A stretch of 47,608 nt of DNA. Origin: Pseudomonadota bacterium. Its GTDB lineage: Bacteria > Pseudomonadota > Alphaproteobacteria > SP197. The position numbers and the translations under genes were made by a program. Below the pieces are notes generated by a model that saw only the letters and a list, made by a program, of their open reading frames with translations, had not been told where the DNA came from and searched no databases. Below, one piece after another: positions 22,316-32,667 of this stretch (position 1 is its first letter; the number at the start of each line of letters is the position of its first letter). Where the stretch lies: NCBI GenBank assembly GCA_039028155.1, contig JBCCIS010000038.1:1-47608 (forward strand), given 5' to 3'.

Positions 22316-25300
22316 CTATTCGGCAGCCGGCCTTAACGCCATTTCACGCAGCGACCGATCGATCCAGAAGCGGGTCAGCTTTTCGTGCACGCCGTTCTGG
22401 GCGAGCCGTTGGGCAAGGCCAGGGAAGTCGACGCAGTCCAGCATCTGATCCTGGTTGAAGCAGGAGAAGACGGGCGGCCGGCGTTCGCCGGTCAAGGGAT
22501 CGACATGTGGCTGCAGGCACTGGGCGCAGACCTCTTTCATCATGCACTGCATCGGACTGTTGATACTGCCGATCGCCGTGTGCTCGGGCTTGAGCCAGGG
22601 CGAGAAGGCGCCAAAGCGCGCTGCTTTGACCGCGGCCATCATCTTGTCGGAGCCGATGGCGATGATACGGTCGACCTCGTCCAGGCCGATCGTCACCTCA
22701 CCCAACTCGCCCGCCTGATAGGCGGTGACCGCATCGACGATGTTGCCGACAAAGCTGCGGTCCTGGGGCCGGCTCGGTTCGAAGCCCGGCTGTTCGTCGC
22801 ACGCCCAGATAATGGTGTCGGCGGCCTGCTCGATCTCCGCGACCTTGTAGCGGTCCTCGACCTTCCGATAGCCGGCGACATAGAGCACGCGGCTGCCGGC
22901 CTCGCGCATCGCGCGGCCGATGGAAAACAGAACGGCGTTGCCCAGACCGCCGCCGAACAAAAGGACCGTTTCACCCGACGGGATCTCGGTCGGCGAGCCG
23001 GTCGGGCCCATGACGATGACCGGTTCGTCCTTGCGCAGATTGGCGACCAGGTCCGACGAGCCACCCATTTCCAGGACGATTAGCGACAACAGGCCGCGCT
23101 CGGGATCGGTCCACGCGCCGGTCATGGCGAGCGGCTCCATGGCGAGCAGGGTGTCGGCGGGCCTGCCGCTGAAGCTCTCGTAGTTCTGCAGGCGGTAGAA
23201 TTGGCCGGGCTTGAAGTTCGCCGCCGCCTCGGGCGCGTGGACGACAACCTCGACAATGGTCGGCGTCAACCGCTCGACCCAGGCGACGGTCGCGACCAGA
23301 CGTTGGGTCAGGTCATCGAAGAAGGCGGCTTCGCCAACATTTGCCGCCGCGTCCAGCTTCTCCAGCATGCGGGTGATGACGGGATAGGCGCGCTTGGCGC
23401 CGCCCATGGCCTTCACGACATTCCCGGCGAAGCTTGGATGCAGGTCGCCGTGAAAGCTGACCGAGCGGCCGTCCGGCGCGATGTGCATGAGGACGTCGGT
23501 CTCGGCCGGCTTGGCGACCTGTTCCGGCGCGACCGGCTCTGCCGCCTCGTCGAACGCCTGGAAGTACTTGCCGTCCAGCGAGACATGGGCGCTGTCTTCG
23601 CGCGCCAGAACCGTGTTCGGCTGGGTGCCGGCGGCGACCAGGATGGCGCGTGCCGGCAACGTCACCTCGTTGCCGTCCCCATCGGTCGTGACCAGGGCGC
23701 TGGCGTGACCGTACTCATCAATGTCGACACGCGTCGGCGTCAGGCCGGGCGCGAAGCTGATGCCTTCTTCCAGCGCCAGGGCGACCTCCTCGTGGTTCAG
23801 CCGGTAGCTCGGTGAGTCCGCGATGTCGCGGCGATAGGCGATGGTAACGCCGCCCCAGGACTGGACGAGCTCGCGTATTCGAGGTTCGCGGCCTTCCGCG
23901 GCGGCCTCCATGCGCTCGGTTCGTATGGCATAGGCATGAACCATGAATTCATCGGCGATGGCAGCTTCTTCCGCGCTCCATGTCGCGCGAAGGTGCGCTT
24001 CCCGGCCGTCGGCGGCGAGCGCCTCGTAGCGCGCCAGGAACTTCTCAACCTGCACGGGATAGTACGCCATCGACTCGGTCGCCGTGTCGACGGCGGTCAG
24101 GCCGCCACCGATGACGACGGCGGGCAGGCGAAGCTGCAGGTTGGCGATTGACGGCTGGCGCGCCGCGCCGGTCAGCTGCAGCGCCATCAGGAAGTCAGAC
24201 GCCATGCGCACGCCGCGCGCCATGGCGTTCGGCATATCGATATAGGTCGGTTTGCCGGCGCCGGCGGCAAGCGCAATATGGTCGAAGCCGGCGGCGAATG
24301 CGCCATCGATGGTAAGCGTGCCGCCAAAACGAACGCCGCCAAACATGCGGAAGCTCTCGCGGCGCTCCAGCTGCAGGCGGATCAGCTTCAGGAAGTTCTT
24401 GTTCCAGCGCACGGTGATGCCGTATTCCGCGACGCCGCCAAATCCGGCCATCACCCGGTCGTCGAGGTCCTCGTAGAGCTGGTTAATACTGTGGATCGGC
24501 TGGAACGCGTGGCGGTTGCCGAGCAGATCGACACCGGAAATCTCCGGCTCCAACGGTTCGATCTTCAGGCCGTCGACGCAGACCACCGTGTGGCCGTCGT
24601 TCATCAGATGATGCGCCAGGTTGAAGCCGGCCGGCCCGACCCCGACGACCAGCACCTGTCGTCCGGTCTTTTCGCGTGGCACCGGCCGCTCGATGTTCAG
24701 CGGGTTCCAGCGCGACATCAGGCTGTAGATCTCGAATCCCCAGGGCAGCTCCAGAATGTCCTTCAGCGTGCGCGTCTCGATCTGCGGAATGTCGACCGGT
24801 TCCTGCTTCTGATAGATGCAGGCCTTCATGCAGTCGTTGCAGATGCGGTGGCCGGTCGCCGCGCATAGCGGGTTGTCGACCATGGCGACGGCAAGGGCGG
24901 CAAGCGACAGGCCGGAGGACTTTAGAAGGTTCATCTCCGAGACCTTCTCGTCCAGCGGACAGCCGGCCAGCGTCACGCCATGCGGGCTCTGCTTGAACGC
25001 GCCCTCCTTGTCTTTCAGTCCGGTCGAGCAGCTATCCTTGCCCTGGTTGTGGCACCAGATGCAGTAGTTGGCGTGATCAAGCGCTGCTTCCAGGTCCATG
25101 CCGTGATCGGTCAGCGCGAACCCTTCGCGGCGGCGCAGATCGTGCTCGGGCAGACGCAACATGGTGACGCCGCCGATCTCGACCGTCTCGACCGGCACCA
25201 GGTGGTCCGGGTTCAGCTTCTCCGGCAGATGAAACAGCGGGCTCTTGCGGTAACGGTGCCGGCCCTCGTCCGACAACGCCGCCCAGGCGGCGAAGCGGGC

Positions 25301-25858
25301 AGCGGCATCAAGCGCCTCGGCGTTTGCCTCTTCGTCGTCGAGCCAGGCCATCACGGCGCGGGCGAAGGAGAGCTCGGTCAGTATCTCGCCGATCAGTGCC
25401 TCGACGACGCGGCGCAGCTCAGCGCCATCGGCTGCGGCCAGTTCGTCGGGCTTGAACGCCTTGGCGGCACGGCGGCGCACGAAGATGCGCTTGCATTCGT
25501 AAATCGGGTTGAGCCGGTCGCGCTCGCCGCGCAGCGTCGCCAATTCGTCGCCGACGCCGAACAGCTCGGTTACGAAGTCTTCGACCGTCGGCCCGAGGTC
25601 GGTGAGCAGATCGGAATGGGTCTTGGAGTCGAGGCCAGTGGGCTCGCTGCGTGCGGCCATCAGGCGGTTGAACAACTCGGCGTCGTTTTCCTTCAGACGA
25701 TCGACGAAGCAGCGGTCCAGGCGCACCAGACCCTCGCGGTCATAGAGGTCGTCGAAGGAAAACCCGAATGCCAGGGAAAGCTCGGTCATGGCCACCTTGG
25801 GGAACGGAACAGGTGCGCCGGACGTCGCGGGCACCGGCGCGTCGGCCTTATATATCAT
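22316..25858 (-). CDS. GltD/NfnB-PyrK/NfnA fusion flavoprotein, Fe-S, 1180 residues
   Basis: Starts at ATG 25858, which overlaps the cysH stop (ATGA); the open frame upstream only shadows cysH. Residues 1-~260 are a helical region of unknown fold. About 265-345 carry eight Cys (YCxxC...C, AGCP, NPLC, then CxxCxxxC), fit for two 4Fe-4S clusters as in GltD/NfnB. From ~400 there is an FAD domain ('VVGVGPAGFN') and at ~580 a nucleotide-binding motif ('VVIGGGLTAVD'). From ~850 comes a PyrK/NfnA-like FAD and NAD(P) unit ('KPGQFYRLQNY', 'LLFGGGLGNAVLFSIG'), and near 1105 a 2Fe-2S-type site (CX5CX2C plus a later Cys). NfnAB and SudAB carry the halves as separate subunits that move electrons between NADH, NADPH and ferredoxin. 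Coupling to cysH suggests a part in sulfur reduction, which is inference. Confidence 0.85.
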   Translation of the reverse strand: MIYKADAPVPATSGAPVPFPKVAMTELSLAFGFSFDDLYDREGLVRLDRCFVDRLKENDAELFNRLMAARSEPTGLDSKTHSDLLTDLGPTVEDFVTELFGVGDELATLRGERDRLNPIYECKRIFVRRRAAKAFKPDELAAADGAELRRVVEALIGEILTELSFARAVMAWLDDEEANAEALDAAARFAAWAALSDEGRHRYRKSPLFHLPEKLNPDHLVPVETVEIGGVTMLRLPEHDLRRREGFALTDHGMDLEAALDHANYCIWCHNQGKDSCSTGLKDKEGAFKQSPHGVTLAGCPLDEKVSEMNLLKSSGLSLAALAVAMVDNPLCAATGHRICNDCMKACIYQKQEPVDIPQIETRTLKDILELPWGFEIYSLMSRWNPLNIERPVPREKTGRQVLVVGVGPAGFNLAHHLMNDGHTVVCVDGLKIEPLEPEISGVDLLGNRHAFQPIHSINQLYEDLDDRVMAGFGGVAEYGITVRWNKNFLKLIRLQLERRESFRMFGGVRFGGTLTIDGAFAAGFDHIALAAGAGKPTYIDMPNAMARGVRMASDFLMALQLTGAARQPSIANLQLRLPAVVIGGGLTAVDTATESMAYYPVQVEKFLARYEALAADGREAHLRATWSAEEAAIADEFMVHAYAIRTERMEAAAEGREPRIRELVQSWGGVTIAYRRDIADSPSYRLNHEEVALALEEGISFAPGLTPTRVDIDEYGHASALVTTDGDGNEVTLPARAILVAAGTQPNTVLAREDSAHVSLDGKYFQAFDEAAEPVAPEQVAKPAETDVLMHIAPDGRSVSFHGDLHPSFAGNVVKAMGGAKRAYPVITRMLEKLDAAANVGEAAFFDDLTQRLVATVAWVERLTPTIVEVVVHAPEAAANFKPGQFYRLQNYESFSGRPADTLLAMEPLAMTGAWTDPERGLLSLIVLEMGGSSDLVANLRKDEPVIVMGPTGSPTEIPSGETVLLFGGGLGNAVLFSIGRAMREAGSRVLYVAGYRKVEDRYKVAEIEQAADTIIWACDEQPGFEPSRPQDRSFVGNIVDAVTAYQAGELGEVTIGLDEVDRIIAIGSDKMMAAVKAARFGAFSPWLKPEHTAIGSINSPMQCMMKEVCAQCLQPHVDPLTGERRPPVFSCFNQDQMLDCVDFPGLAQRLAQNGVHEKLTRFWIDRSLREMALRPAAE

Positions 25859-26628
25859 CCTGCCTGTTGGGCAACGTCTGGGACGGCCGCCTCCTTGATC
25901 ACCGGCGTCGGCGATTCCATCAGGTGAATGCCGCACTCGGCCTTGGCGCGGCCAGCCCAGCGGCCGTCGCGGATAGCCTCGTCGCCGCTTACCGGACGGG
26001 TACACGGCGTGCAGCCGATCGACACATAGTGGCGCTCCAGCAGCGGGTGCTTGGGCAGGCCGTGGCGGGCGATGAACTGAAAGACATCGCGTTTGTCCCA
26101 ATCGGCCAGCGGATTGATCTTGACCCAGCCGTCGGATGCCTCGACCGACGGTAGGCTTTGTCGGCCGCCGCCATGGAACCGTTTGCGACCGGTGACCCAG
26201 GCAGCAAAGGGCGTCAGCGCCTGGACCATCGGCGTTACCTTGCGCAGGAAACAGCAGGCGTCGGGATTGTCGCGCCACAGCGTGCCGCCAGGGTCGGTCG
26301 CGGCGATATCGACGATGTCGGGACCGGCGGAACGCACGCCGGTCAGACCCAGACGGTCGATCACGTCGTCACGATAGGTGAGTGTCTCCGGGAACAACTT
26401 ACCGGTATCCAGAAAGATCACCGGGATGGCCGGGTCGATCTCGGCGGCAAGCGCCAGGAGCGCAACCGCCTCCGCGCCAAACGAGGACGCGACGGCAATC
26501 TCGCCGGCGAACGGGCCTTCAATGGCTGCTCGCAGCAGGTCGTGACCCGACAGATGACCGTGGTCCAGGGCGAACTCCGCGGCTCGCCGTTTTGCGCGGT
26601 CGCGGCGCTGCTGACGCCAGCCGCTCAT
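25855..26628 (-). CDS. cysH: CysH, APS/PAPS reductase with Fe-S cysteines
   Basis: 257 residues from ATG 26628 (ATGA overlap with the preceding stop); a GTG at 26637 is also in frame. PP-loop-type start 'GEIAVASSFGAEAVALLAL', then 'VIFLDTGKLFPETLTYRD'. It has the CC and CxxC pairs ('DACCFLRKV', 'IGCTPCTRP') that bind the 4Fe-4S cluster of bacterial APS reductases, and the catalytic Cys in 'ECGIH'. That makes it more likely adenylylsulfate (APS) reductase than cluster-free PAPS reductase. It makes sulfite in assimilatory sulfate reduction. Middle gene of a three-gene coupled operon. Confidence 0.93.
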   Translation of the reverse strand: MSGWRQQRRDRAKRRAAEFALDHGHLSGHDLLRAAIEGPFAGEIAVASSFGAEAVALLALAAEIDPAIPVIFLDTGKLFPETLTYRDDVIDRLGLTGVRSAGPDIVDIAATDPGGTLWRDNPDACCFLRKVTPMVQALTPFAAWVTGRKRFHGGGRQSLPSVEASDGWVKINPLADWDKRDVFQFIARHGLPKHPLLERHYVSIGCTPCTRPVSGDEAIRDGRWAGRAKAECGIHLMESPTPVIKEAAVPDVAQQAG

Positions 26629-27185
26629 CCGAGCCACCCCTGTTCGTCGATGTAGCGGTCGGTGCGCCGTTTGACCGCCGCCATGTCGGCGCCGTCGGCG
26701 CGCCAGCCGTCGCGCACCTCGGCCAGTTCGTCAAGGCGTCCGGCCCATTCCGGTCCGAACAGCCGCTCTACATAACGTCGAAGCGATCCGGCCAGACCGG
26801 GCGCGCGGCCGGCGGTCGAGATGGTAAGGGTCAGGTCGCCGCGCCGGACCAGGGCCGGCAGGTGGAAGTCGCAATAGGGTTTGCGGTCCTCGACATTGAC
26901 CAGGACCTTCAGCGCCCGGCAGGCGTCAGCGATCGGCCCCGCGACGGCGTCGCTCAGACCGGCGACAAACACTACGTCGGCCTGGGCGAGGTCGCGGGTT
27001 TCCGGCAGACGCGCCACCAGACGTGCGCCGGCCACGGCCGACAGGGCATCGCCGGTCTTGTCGGAATAGACCGTGATATGGCGCGCGCCTGCGTTTTCGC
27101 AAAACTTGAGCTTGCGCGCCGCCGCCGCGCCACGCCCGACGATCGCGATCTTCAGGCGGGTGACGTCGAGCTGAACGGGTAGCAT
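26625..27185 (-). CDS. Siroheme synthase N-domain (precorrin-2 dehydrogenase/ferrochelatase)
   Basis: 186 residues from ATG 27185, preceded by GGAGGGG; the frame opens slightly further upstream without a better signal. Rossmann start 'LKIAIVGRGAAAARKLKFCE' then 'ADVVFVAGLSD', 'LVNVEDRKPYCDFHLPALVR' and 'LTLTISTAGRAPGLAGSLRR', typical of the CysG N-terminal/MET8 domain that oxidises precorrin-2 and inserts iron to give siroheme, the cofactor of sulfite and nitrite reductase. The methyltransferase half of CysG is absent here and must be elsewhere. First main gene after the SAM-II leader; translation-coupled to cysH. Confidence 0.92.
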   Translation of the reverse strand: MLPVQLDVTRLKIAIVGRGAAAARKLKFCENAGARHITVYSDKTGDALSAVAGARLVARLPETRDLAQADVVFVAGLSDAVAGPIADACRALKVLVNVEDRKPYCDFHLPALVRRGDLTLTISTAGRAPGLAGSLRRYVERLFGPEWAGRLDELAEVRDGWRADGADMAAVKRRTDRYIDEQGWLG

Positions 27186-27339: not shown

Positions 27340-27372
27340 AAAAAAATGCCGCCCTCTCAAAGTGATGGGCGG
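27340..27372 (-). terminator. Riboswitch expression platform: terminator with competing antiterminator
   Basis: On the minus strand, CCGCCC / GGGCGG forms a 6-bp stem with a 12-base loop followed by CA and seven Ts (27346-27340). An upstream alternative stem, GGTGGGC / GCCCATC (27382-27376 with 27370-27364; one G-U pair), uses part of the terminator's left arm, so the two hairpins exclude each other. They come immediately after the SAM-II aptamer, as expected for transcription attenuation. Confidence 0.75.
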
Positions 27373-27380
27373 TCTGCCCA

Positions 27381-27433
27381 CCGCTTTAGCCGTATTTCTA
27401 GAGCGCCCGCAAGCTGATGATCAAATCGGCGCT
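27381..27433 (-). promoter_or_regulatory. SAM-II riboswitch aptamer
   Basis: Read on the minus strand: P1 left arm AGCGCC (27433-27428), then GATTTGATCATCAGCTTGCG, right arm GGCGCT (27407-27402), then AGAAATACGGCTAAAGCGG. The conserved GATTTGA, CTTGC, AAA and GCTAAAG elements in this order, with a P1 stem closing around the first two and the 3' part free for the H-type pseudoknot, match the SAM-II (metA motif) aptamer of alphaproteobacteria. It should lower expression of the downstream siroheme synthase-cysH-flavoprotein operon when S-adenosylmethionine is abundant. Confidence 0.85.
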
Positions 27434-27442
27434 GTGGGGGAG

Positions 27443-27471
27443 AATATGCGCGGCGATCGGCGGACGCGCAA
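27443..27471 (-). promoter_or_regulatory. Candidate promoter for SAM-II leader
   Basis: Minus strand TTGCGC (27471-27466), 17-base spacer, CATATT (27448-27443). A start site about seven bases further would fall near 27436, just before the riboswitch P1 arm at 27433. Position rather than perfect consensus supports it. Confidence 0.5.
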
Positions 27472-27520
27472 ACGAGAAATGCTAGGGCGATTGATAAGAA
27501 TTTCTAGGGAATAAAGCCAA

Positions 27521-27555
27521 TCGGCCTCCCCGCAACGGATGTGCGGGGAGGCCGA
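27521..27555 (-). terminator. Terminator after aldehyde dehydrogenase
   Basis: Perfect 14-bp stem (TCGGCCTCCCCGCA / TGCGGGGAGGCCGA) with a 7-base loop, 28 bases past the aldehyde dehydrogenase stop, followed on that strand by TTGGCTTTATT. It isolates the riboswitch operon from the gene upstream. Confidence 0.85.
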
Positions 27556-29016: not shown

Positions 29017-29127
29017 ATCCTTCTCCTTTGACGGTGTGTTCCCTCAGGTGATCCCAACGCCTCGGGGTCGCGAGTTGTCGACTCGAGATAGCCCCACGAA
29101 ACGGCCGAAAAAGAGAGTCTATGTAAT

Positions 29128-29146
29128 GCGAATGATTATTATTTGC
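29128..29146. promoter_or_regulatory. Fur-like operator between aldehyde dehydrogenase and fpr
   Basis: GCGAATGATTATTATTTGC is a 19-base near-palindrome in which 14 of 18 paired positions match its own reverse complement, close to the classic Fur box and to alphaproteobacterial Fur/Mur sites. It sits 112 bases before the ALDH start and 111 before fpr, in an AT-rich patch. Iron control of fpr, and perhaps ALDH, is an inference. Confidence 0.5.
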
Positions 29147-29256
29147 AATACGCTACGGTGCGCTATAGAACGCCTGCGCGATTGAGTCTGAGACTGCCGT
29201 CGCCCGCAGACTCCACGCCCGAATGTGACCGATCCGGACTGTGAGGAGCCTGTTGC

Positions 29257-30051: not shown

Positions 30052-30189
30052 GAGCGGGTCATGATTAGGTGGAACCGTCTGTCGGCTCCACCTAACCCTG
30101 TGAATCCGCTCTCTATCTATGAATAGAGCAGATTCACCTGCCTTGACGGAGCCGCGATGCGATTCCATCAAAACAGGATCTGCTCTAAC
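30051..30189 (+). repeat. ~140-bp structured intergenic repeat, copy A
   Basis: Nearly the same sequence recurs inverted at 46411-46550. The module order is a hairpin around AGGTGGAACCG / CGGCTCCACCT, then GTGAATCCGCTCT paired (one mismatch) with AGAGCAGATTCAC, then a long hairpin framed by AGAGCAGAT / ATCTGCTCT. The first stem differs from copy B by paired changes (TTAGG..CCTAA here, TCAGG..CCTGA there). It starts at the fpr stop codon and precedes the DUF1989 gene. Confidence 0.85.
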
Positions 30190-30303
30190 AGCAACCGACT
30201 TCCAATTTTTACTGACTATCGTGGGCCGTGCCGCCTCGGTTGCGGCGATGCGGTCTTGCGCAGTAAGCTCGTCGCCGCGACCCCCCGGACGACAAACTGC
30301 TGG

Positions 30304-32667
30304 ATGATGACTATGGCCTTGGCCGAATCCCAGACCAGCCCAGTCCGGCCGCGACTTTTGTTGCCGGGTCTGGCCCGTTCAAAGCCGGGACAAGAACAGT
30401 ACCGCGTCGCCGGGGGCGGCTCGGTGACGGTGCCGGTGTTCGCTGGCGACCAGATTCACATCATGGATCCTGAAGGCCGTCAGGCCTGCGAAGTCGTCGC
30501 CGTCACCGCTGACGGCCGCGAGGCGCCCGGCCTGTTGGGCGCTGACGATGGCGGGCCCGGCCACGGCTTGCGACAGATGGTCAAAGCCGGCGGCGCCAAC
30601 GGGGCCGATCTGCTGGCGGCGCTCGAAAAGCGTGGCCTTGACCTTGCGTTTGATCGCGCCATTCACTGTTTCGGCGCGGAGACGCCAGCATTCGAAACGG
30701 TCGCGTTCACGGTCGACGACGACGGTCTCGTCATTGTTGCCGCACCGGGCGAAGACATGGCGGTCGATGCGCACGATCCGGCGACGGCGCTTGAGCTGAC
30801 GATTCAGCGGGCCGATCCCAAACGGGCGGCCGAAGCCACGTTGCCCGACCCGCTTGCCGATGTGCGTCACGAGCACCGGATCCTCGCCGGCACCGCGCAC
30901 GCCTTTGAAGTGCGCGCGGGCGAGTTCATCCAGATCATGGATATCGAGGGGCGCGAGTGTTCGGACTTTCAGGCTTTCGCGACCCGCCAACTCGACAAGG
31001 GTATCGAGCGCGACATCGATCCGACCGCGACGCGCACGCTGATGGGCGCCATCTATCCGGGTCCGGGCCTGTTCTCGAAGTTCTACGACACCGACCTCGA
31101 GCCCAAGCTGGAGCTGATCCAGGACATGGTCGGACGCCACGACACGTTCGGCTTCGCCTGCACGGCGAAGTACTACGACGACAACGGCTATCCCGGTCAC
31201 GTCAACTGCACGGAGAGTTTCAACAACGCGCTGGCGCCCTACGGTATCGCGCCGCGCGGTGGTTGGCAGGCTATCAACTTCTTCTACAACACCAACATCG
31301 ACGACAACCACCAGCTCTATCTGGACGATCCGTGGTCCAGGCCCGGCGACCATGTCATCGTGCGCGCGCTGGAAGACATGGTCTGTATCGCCTCGGCCTG
31401 CCCCGACGACATTACCGCTGCCAACGGCTGGAACCCGACCGACATCATGGCCCGGGTCTACGCCCCCGAGAACGTTTTCAAGAAAGCGATCGCCTTCCGC
31501 ATGACGCCCGACGCCGAACCCGAAATGACTAAGGAAACCGCGTTCCACGCACGCACGTCCGAACTGACCCGCAACATCACCGAATACAACGGCTATTGGT
31601 TGCCGACCCACTACAACAACCACGGCAAGGTCGATGAGTATTGGGCTTGCCGTGAGGGCGTGGTGGCGCTTGACCTTAGCCCCTTGCGCAAGTTCGAGGT
31701 GACCGGTCCCGACGCCGAGGAACTGATGCAGCGCACCCTGACGCGCAATGTCAGGAAGCTGGCCGAAGGCGAAGTCGTCTATTCAGCCATGTGTTACGAA
31801 CACGGCGGCATGATCGACGACGGCACGCTGTTCCGCATGTCCGACACCAACTTCCGCTGGGTCGGCGGCAGCGACTATGGCGGCAAATGGCTGCGCGAGA
31901 AGGCGGTCGAATGGGGCCTGCGCGCCTGGGTTAAGTCGTCGACCGACGAGCTCCATAACTTCGCCGTCCAGGGACCGAAGAGCCGCGATCTCCTCCGCGA
32001 CGTCATCTGGACGCCGCCGACGCAGCCGTCGATGGACGAGATCGCGTGGTTCCGCTTCGCGATCGGACGGATCGGCGGCCACAACGGCGTGCCGGTCGTC
32101 GTGTCGCGCACCGGCTATACCGGCGAGTTGGGTTATGAAGTCTGGTGCCATCCCAAGCACGGGACCGAGGTCTGGGATGCCGTGTGGCAGGCGGGCGAAC
32201 CCCATGGCCTGACACCGCTCGGGCTCGACGCCCTCGACATGCTGCGCATCGAGTCCGGTCTGATCTTCGCGGGCTACGAGTTCGACGATCAGACCGATCC
32301 GTTCGAAGCCGGCATCGGTTTCACCGTCGCGCTGAAACACGGCGAGGACTTCGTCGGCCGCGACGCGCTGGTCCGGCGCAAGGAAAACCCGCAGAAGAAA
32401 CTTGTCGGTCTGGAGCTCGAAGGTGGCGAAGCCGCCGGCCATGGCGACTGCGTTCACATCGGCCGCCCGCAGATCGGCGTTGTCACATCCGGCATGAAAT
32501 CGCCCATATTGAAGAAGAACATCGCCTTGGCCCGGTTGGACGTGGCGCATGCTGAGCCCGGCACCGAGGTCGAGGTCGGAAAGCTCGACGGCCATCAAAA
32601 GCGTATTCCAGCGACCGTCGTTCCCTTCCCATTCTATGATCCCAAAAAGGAACGGCCGCGGTCATAA
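30304..32667 (+). CDS. DUF1989-aminomethyltransferase (GcvT-like) fusion
   Basis: 787 residues from ATG 30304 (ATGs at 30307 and 30313 are also in frame; no strong ribosome binding site). Residues ~25-175 hold one DUF1989/urea-carboxylase-associated-like segment ('VPVFAGDQIHIMDPEGRQAC'); ~188-400 a full second one ('VRAGEFIQIMDIEGRECSDF', 'HVNCTESFNNALAPYGI'); ~410 to the end a GcvT-type aminomethyltransferase ('EVTGPDAEELMQRTLTRNVR', 'VVVSRTGYTGELGYEVW'). GcvT folds move methylene groups from methylamines to tetrahydrofolate, as in glycine cleavage and dimethylglycine or sarcosine oxidation. The nearby glycine betaine transporter suggests demethylation of a related compound, which is inference. 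Confidence 0.85.
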   Translation: MMTMALAESQTSPVRPRLLLPGLARSKPGQEQYRVAGGGSVTVPVFAGDQIHIMDPEGRQACEVVAVTADGREAPGLLGADDGGPGHGLRQMVKAGGANGADLLAALEKRGLDLAFDRAIHCFGAETPAFETVAFTVDDDGLVIVAAPGEDMAVDAHDPATALELTIQRADPKRAAEATLPDPLADVRHEHRILAGTAHAFEVRAGEFIQIMDIEGRECSDFQAFATRQLDKGIERDIDPTATRTLMGAIYPGPGLFSKFYDTDLEPKLELIQDMVGRHDTFGFACTAKYYDDNGYPGHVNCTESFNNALAPYGIAPRGGWQAINFFYNTNIDDNHQLYLDDPWSRPGDHVIVRALEDMVCIASACPDDITAANGWNPTDIMARVYAPENVFKKAIAFRMTPDAEPEMTKETAFHARTSELTRNITEYNGYWLPTHYNNHGKVDEYWACREGVVALDLSPLRKFEVTGPDAEELMQRTLTRNVRKLAEGEVVYSAMCYEHGGMIDDGTLFRMSDTNFRWVGGSDYGGKWLREKAVEWGLRAWVKSSTDELHNFAVQGPKSRDLLRDVIWTPPTQPSMDEIAWFRFAIGRIGGHNGVPVVVSRTGYTGELGYEVWCHPKHGTEVWDAVWQAGEPHGLTPLGLDALDMLRIESGLIFAGYEFDDQTDPFEAGIGFTVALKHGEDFVGRDALVRRKENPQKKLVGLELEGGEAAGHGDCVHIGRPQIGVVTSGMKSPILKKNIALARLDVAHAEPGTEVEVGKLDGHQKRIPATVVPFPFYDPKKERPRS

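Follow-up and report, generated by a model that had tools for sequence, protein, structure and literature searches.

The window analysed here, a stretch of 47,608 nucleotides that is contig C38 of the 5.3 Mb genome of a marine alphaproteobacterium, harbors a cysG-cysH-flavoprotein operon preceded by a structured leader, which raises the question of what kind of RNA this leader is and whether it makes sulfate reduction answer to SAM. Riboswitch and operon both lie on the minus strand, a point that has to be corrected in the preliminary description of this DNA. The genes and the boundary of the unit are the following:

26625..27185, minus strand: cysG N-terminal domain protein, 186 aa (TIGR01470, 78.9 bits, above cut-off; PF13241), of the precorrin-2 dehydrogenase/sirohydrochlorin ferrochelatase type
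25855..26637, minus strand: cysH, phosphoadenylyl-sulfate reductase, 260 aa (NF002537, 253.9 bits; TIGR00434 above cut-off)
22316..25855, minus strand: PRK06567-type flavoprotein of about 1150-1179 aa with a GltD-like and an FNR-like part (Pyr_redox_2; NF005128 at 738.9 bits, under its cut-off of 1072)
27521..27555, minus strand: terminator of the upstream aldehyde dehydrogenase gene, a 14-pair stem with a T-rich tail

The operon has the order cysG(N)-cysH-PRK06567, and the ends of neighboring genes overlap or nearly do so. The start codon of cysG is the ATG at 27185, which is preceded by AGGAGGGG, and the flavoprotein probably starts at a later Met (MTELS...). The terminator of the aldehyde dehydrogenase gene sets the riboswitch transcription unit apart from the upstream gene. 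In relatives, a gene for a large GcvT/DmdA-like protein is the divergent neighbor of the riboswitch operon; in the window, where this protein is encoded at 30157-32667 (identity assigned by eye), an aldehyde dehydrogenase and a ferredoxin-NADP reductase gene are located in between. Upstream of the latter, at about 29125-29155, there is an AT-rich imperfect inverted repeat, AATGCGAATGATTATTATTTGCAATAC, which we take to resemble an iron-regulator (Fur-type) box.

The SAM-II elements that the preliminary description had named, the P1 stem and the motifs GATTTGA, CTTGC and GCTAAAG, are all present in the leader when it is read on the minus strand:

27365..27442, minus strand: SAM-II (SAM_alpha) aptamer of the subtype variant I (RF00521, 33.1 bits; model R2, 78.3 bits)
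27402..27433, minus strand: P1 stem, which closes the SAM-pocket loop GATTTGA ... CTTGC with the arms AGCGCC (27433-27428) and GGCGCT (27407-27402) (from sequence and covariation in 66 relatives)
27427-27421, minus strand: GATTTGA
27413-27409, minus strand: CTTGC
27390-27384, minus strand: GCTAAAG
27378..27420, minus strand: P2 pseudoknot, pairing CTTGC (27413-27409) with GCTAA(A)G (27390-27384), C27416 with G27382, and distally 27417-27420 with 27381-27378

When 401 bases were searched against all Rfam families at relaxed thresholds, RF00521 (SAM_alpha, i.e., SAM-II) matched 27442-27365 over its full length (1-79) with 33.1 bits and an E-value of 7.3e-6, which is 2.3e-5 in a search over the whole genome. 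This score is just under the RF00521 gathering score of 36, so that a default Rfam scan misses the riboswitch, and scanning the window at gathering scores gave no match. The gathering score is a search cut-off and not a biological feature, and the leaders of the same operon in two relatives attain it (G013, 36.6 bits; G008, 36.0 bits), which makes the window copy a borderline-scoring member of SAM-II. SAM-V, SAM-II with long loops and SAM/SAH were also considered as class and none matched; for SAM-V (RF01826) the leader region gave no match at E-values up to 10. A score below the cut-off could likewise be read as a chance or decayed match beside an ordinary terminator, without any riboswitch function. 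Against this stands the match of R2, a covariance model built from 66 variant-I relatives, none of them from the own family, which gives 78.3 bits (E 2.9e-19) for the window element, the next-best match in the window reaching 9.7 bits. As conservation across genera, the covariation and the linkage to cysG in nine of nine genomes, both described below, point in the same direction, a chance or decayed match is refuted in practice and can be given next to no weight.

The 66 aligned variant-I sequences, which stem from 62 Alpha- and four Betaproteobacteria outside the family, support both helices and thereby the class assignment. In P1, 98% of the cells are paired, four of the six pairs show double changes, and the outer pair is seen as AU, CG, GC and UA. 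The core pairs of P2 are invariant or covarying and 96% paired, whereas the distal extension of P2 is paired in only 58% across the relatives, yet with double changes; the window copy can form four more distal P2 pairs, two of which are U-G, and several orthologues have one mismatch there. Taken together, P1 and the P2 pseudoknot have 89.4% paired cells, and eight pairs are changed on both sides compared to a shuffled mean of 4.3 (0 of 500 as high), with a covariation score of 0.176 versus 0.074. When the partners were slid by one to three columns, pairing fell to 32-56%. Moreover, the residues that form the SAM pocket in the SAM-II crystal structure, U10-U12, U20, U21, G22, C23, and G42-A47 (PMC3764141), are all found in the window within GATTTGA, CTTGC, and GCTAAAG, and they are invariant in the 66 relatives. 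SAM can be assumed to be the ligand of this leader as well.

Downstream of, and partly within, the aptamer two hairpins can form:

27364..27382, minus strand: antiterminator hairpin with the arms GGTGGGC (27382-27376) and GCCCATC (27370-27364), folding with -10.8 kcal/mol
27340..27372, minus strand: intrinsic terminator with the arms CCGCCC (27372-27367) and GGGCGG (27354-27349), followed by seven T (27346-27340), folding with -13.5 kcal/mol and found in nine of nine orthologues

The terminator stem core of -13.5 kcal/mol compares with a shuffled mean of -5.5 kcal/mol (0 of 500 as low). The 3' arm of the antiterminator, GCCCATC, overlaps the 5' arm of the terminator, CCGCCC, and therefore the two hairpins are mutually exclusive, while the 5' arm of the antiterminator overlaps the 3' strand of P2 at the nearly invariant C27416-G27382 pair and at the distal pairs. 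Both hairpins can be formed in all nine orthologous leaders, which belong to three genera, and are accompanied by U tracts. The antiterminator ranges from -10.8 to -12.6 kcal/mol in the orthologues and is weakest in G006 (-5.8 kcal/mol), the terminator ranges from -9.0 to -19.0 kcal/mol, and position two of the antiterminator arm holds either G or A, so that GU or AU pairing is kept. A full-length ViennaRNA MFE fold favours non-native pairings and does not contain the native aptamer, because this program cannot model pseudoknots; the hairpins were assessed piecewise and by conservation. Since the pair is kept in all nine orthologues, attenuation is under selection, and the mutually exclusive hairpins with a seven-T tract and the output by transcription attenuation, as they had been proposed from the sequence, thus gain comparative support.

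We consider it highly probable that the leader is a SAM-II-class transcriptional OFF switch acting on cysG-cysH-PRK06567. Transcription would start a few nucleotides before P1. At low SAM, GGTGGGC, which follows GCTAAAG, would pair with GCCCATC, so that the terminator is blocked and the polymerase reads through into the operon. With SAM bound, P2 would hold the GCTAAAG strand and the following bases, GCCCATC would be freed, and CCGCCC would pair with GGGCGG before the seven U, leading to the release of an RNA of about 95 nt. In this way, plentiful SAM as the end product would turn down sulfate reduction together with the supply of siroheme and a flavoprotein that is a candidate electron donor. 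What speaks against such an OFF switch is that the distal P2, which is the part that has to compete with the antiterminator, is the poorly paired section mentioned above, that the Rfam score remains under the cut-off, and that the promoter is poor. The elements upstream of the aptamer are:

27443..27472, minus strand: weak promoter TTTGCG-N18-CATATT, off consensus
27493..27509, minus strand: 17-bp box CCCTAGAAATTCTTATC, a candidate regulator operator with two matches in the genome and related boxes in several relatives
Contig C48 of the same genome (G000), 30771-30787: second copy of the near-palindromic 17-bp box, upstream of DUF2849-cysI-DUF934

The promoter-like pair had been placed so that transcription begins at P1, and its spacing indeed sets the start a few nucleotides before this stem, but TTTGCG and CATATT, separated by 18 nt, match the promoter consensus at only seven of 12 positions, and a consensus scan of the promoter region found no sigma-70 match of nine or more of 12. 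That this promoter is used can be presumed. The promoter furthermore carries a conserved upstream box, which has to be added to the preliminary description. Even with two mismatches the pattern CCCTAGAAATTCTWATC has exactly two sites in the genome, upstream of the riboswitch promoter and upstream of DUF2849-cysI-DUF934, and, as it was derived from these two sites, it is the absence of others that is independent. A regulator common to the cysG and cysI promoters may bind there, and it is likely that the box, which the cysI operon has as well, provides a second input at the promoter; with such a shared regulator, SAM would gate only one of the two sulfate-reduction units. One step further, control could lie mainly with an activator that acts through the 17-bp box together with the conserved -35 region, with the riboswitch being real but secondary and attenuation only trimming expression. 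This would fit the lack of a consensus -35/-10, the box common to the cysI promoter only, and the fact that the orthologues have TTCTCGTTTGC, or a sequence close to it, around -35, whereas those SAM-II leaders that precede met genes in these genomes carry CTTGACA instead. The terminator/antiterminator pair kept in all nine orthologues argues against a merely secondary role, and the two controls are compatible with each other, therefore we hold a dominant activator to be unlikely.

Within the GTDB family, all 16 genomes of which were covered and to which the order adds none, the SAM-II copies fall into three sequence types. The canonical type scores 60-78 bits and, at the loci that were checked, precedes a gene for a metZ-type O-succinylhomoserine sulfhydrylase. 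Variant I, the type of the window, has the form AGCGCCGATTTGA..CAGCTTGCGGGCGCT..GCTAAAGCG, and a terminator usually comes after it. Variant II has the form CCGCGGGATTTGA..GGGCAGCTTGCGTCCGCG.. with a hairpin close to the ribosome site but no T run behind it, and possibly acts translationally. In the genome of the window, RF00521 finds the leader copy and three others, a canonical one with 77.8 bits on contig C3 and, on C29, a tandem pair scoring 33.4 and 29.1 bits. The latter, with variant I before variant II (C29:36653-36853; L045 1968-2160), precedes metY and a small gene whose product resembles OsmC by eye, with no NCBIfam match. Similar I/II tandems were seen before metY or cys operons in other genomes. 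Variant I precedes cysG in nine of the nine family genomes having this cysG, a count that includes G001, where the locus is split across two contigs, and G003, where it lies at a contig edge. The target assignment to cysG, cysH and the flavoprotein is thereby backed by conserved gene linkage, with G007 and G014 having the operon without cysH. In G004 and G015 a tandem of variants I and II precedes cysH-cysI-DUF934-PRK06567, with DUF2849 also present in G004. A further point against the OFF switch on this operon is that G005, G009, and G010 keep PRK06567, beside a DmdA-like gene, without cysG and without the switch.

Does the link to sulfate reduction extend beyond this family? Matches of the variant-I model occur in 135 of the 385 genomes sampled from the class, and we took 77 strong leaders (bits > ~53) outside the family and classified their downstream genes, the identities of which were checked with Pfam and NCBIfam. 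Sulfur genes follow 67 of the 77 leaders, and 10 are unassigned. Methionine synthesis or uptake (metY, metZ, metH, metF, metN, metQ) accounts for 43 leaders and sulfonate or sulfate uptake (ssuA, sbp) for 17, with L117, L121, and L125 counted as sulfonate uptake rather than methionine, since MetN also matches SsuB. The remaining seven, from five other families, precede genes of sulfate reduction (cysG, cysH or cysI):

G372, G380, G599: cysG-DUF2849-cysI downstream
G423, G520: sulfite reductase downstream, with or without cysG-cysH
G565, G637: cysH downstream

Counting the own family, SAM-II leaders are thus found before sulfate-reduction operons in six families. Several of the cys leaders are at or above the RF00521 gathering score (G565 cysH, 39.8; G372 cysG, 39.1; G015, 38.6; G599 cysG, 37.2; G004, 36.9 bits), and therefore the link is independent of a model of the R2 type. 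Variant I was also seen before ssuA or sbp in many alphaproteobacterial families (L113-L120, L131, L132, L151, L159, L168, L183, and others), often with an OsmC-like gene near the locus, and unusually many copies are present in G637 (seven) and G565 (five), where the units are metY-sbp, metN, ssuA, and cysH. Targets such as sulfate reduction and sulfonate uptake, together with a subtype whose loop deviates from the canonical type and whose distal P2 is shortened, could also mean that the same fold senses another sulfur metabolite such as SAH. The SAM-contact residues are, though, invariant as described above (PMC3764141), the same subtype stands before metY, metZ, metH, metF, and metNIQ, and SAM-II did not respond to 1 mM SAH or methionine (PMC1273637), so that another ligand appears distinctly improbable.

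The flavoprotein at the end of the operon is present in all 16 family genomes and stands behind cysI-DUF934 in G004 and G015. A search for the CysJ-type FAD_binding_1 domain gave no match in any of the 16 family genomes, E. coli and B. subtilis being positive as controls. It is a reasonable proposal from this gene content that PRK06567 is a candidate electron donor to sulfite reductase, which would make it a testable partner of this enzyme. A wider picture would be that a SAM-II subtype of Alpha- and Betaproteobacteria, partly hidden from Rfam and partly mis-stranded there as RF02424, controls the path from sulfonate and sulfate uptake via sulfate reduction to methionine, and that PRK06567 replaces CysJ in the own family as the missing electron donor of sulfite reductase; as a whole we regard it as tentative, with the chances for it somewhat short of even.

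The mis-stranding concerns RF02424 (Bp2_287, "Burkholderia sRNA"), which gives a weak match on the plus strand of the window (27341-27469; 18.9 bits against a gathering score of 70) and could suggest a functional RNA of this type on that strand. In all RF02424 matches examined from a search of the Burkholderiales order (L198-L205), the core GATTTGA...CAGCTTGC...GCTAAAG is located on the opposite strand, and some of these cores precede, by inspection, metZ, metX, metH or metN, which also read opposite to RF02424 where identifiable. In L085 (1501-1703), where RF02424 scores 107.5 bits, the opposite strand likewise has a SAM-II core, together with a terminator and a gene recognizable as metZ from its sequence. 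A phylum-wide RF02424 search gave two weak matches, in L086 and L087, without a SAM-II core on either strand, which look like chance. Bp2_Cand287 itself was located upstream of metX/metZ, and its authors proposed that it acts in cis on methionine genes (PMC3521395). A plus-strand sRNA in the window is hence very improbable, and the simplest reading of these loci would be that RF02424 shows, as the reverse complement, SAM-II-type leaders that belong to metZ, metX, metH, and metN, and is, if this is true, a mis-stranded Rfam family.

The nearest known counterpart of the leader is the metA element of Agrobacterium, a SAM-II with the same P1, SAM-pocket residues and P2 core pseudoknot, which likewise has a promoter just before P1 and a terminator after P2 (PMC1273637). 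SAM-II binds SAM and not SAH or methionine, and an OFF-switch model was proposed for those members with terminators (PMC1273637). The window leader differs from it in a shorter, weakly conserved distal P2, in nearly fixed P1 (GCGCC/GGCGC) and CAG...GCG sequences, in a score near or under the gathering cut-off, and in its target, cysG-cysH-PRK06567 instead of a methionine gene. The SAM-II targets named in the literature covered are all of the methionine pathway, metA, metX, metY/metZ, metC, hom, metW, and bhmT (PMC1273637, PMC4239095, PMC5069961), and no cys targets (cysH, sulfite reductase, sulfate assimilation) were found in its main texts. The window switch accordingly belongs to a known riboswitch class and has a recurrent target that is new within this coverage. 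The SAM-II regulon of Alphaproteobacteria is thereby extended beyond methionine synthesis, so that it also takes in sulfate reduction, the supply of siroheme and sulfonate uptake, by a subtype of which about half is missed at the current Rfam cut-off. A reduced final 3' pairing is also known from SAM-V and from the SAM-II/SAM-V tandem of Pelagibacter (PMC2704228, PMC5069961). This tandem and the C29 locus both combine a terminator-type with an apparently non-terminator switch, but at C29 both members match SAM_alpha. In beta-proteobacteria, the "novel" metXZ element upstream of metX/metZ similarly combines a pseudoknot built from conserved blocks with a terminator behind it (Leyn et al., 2014; PMC4239095); this element and the SAM-II leaders are probably one and the same RNA. 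The metXZ element and RF02424, some with a longer loop 3, had been taken for a novel element whose effector was unknown, or for an opposite-strand sRNA; since SAM-II had been noted in beta-proteobacteria earlier (PMC2258182), the novelty lies in their identification and not in the distribution. The closest parallel in wiring comes from a different phylum. The genes ylnDEF of Bacillus subtilis are siroheme genes. They belong to the cysHP-sat-cysC-ylnDEF operon, which is under the control of an S-box SAM riboswitch (PMC2743287), so that here, too, a SAM riboswitch precedes cysH and siroheme genes. The S-box (SAM-I) aptamer has a fold unrelated to that of SAM-II, and the two lineages have thus converged on the same wiring.
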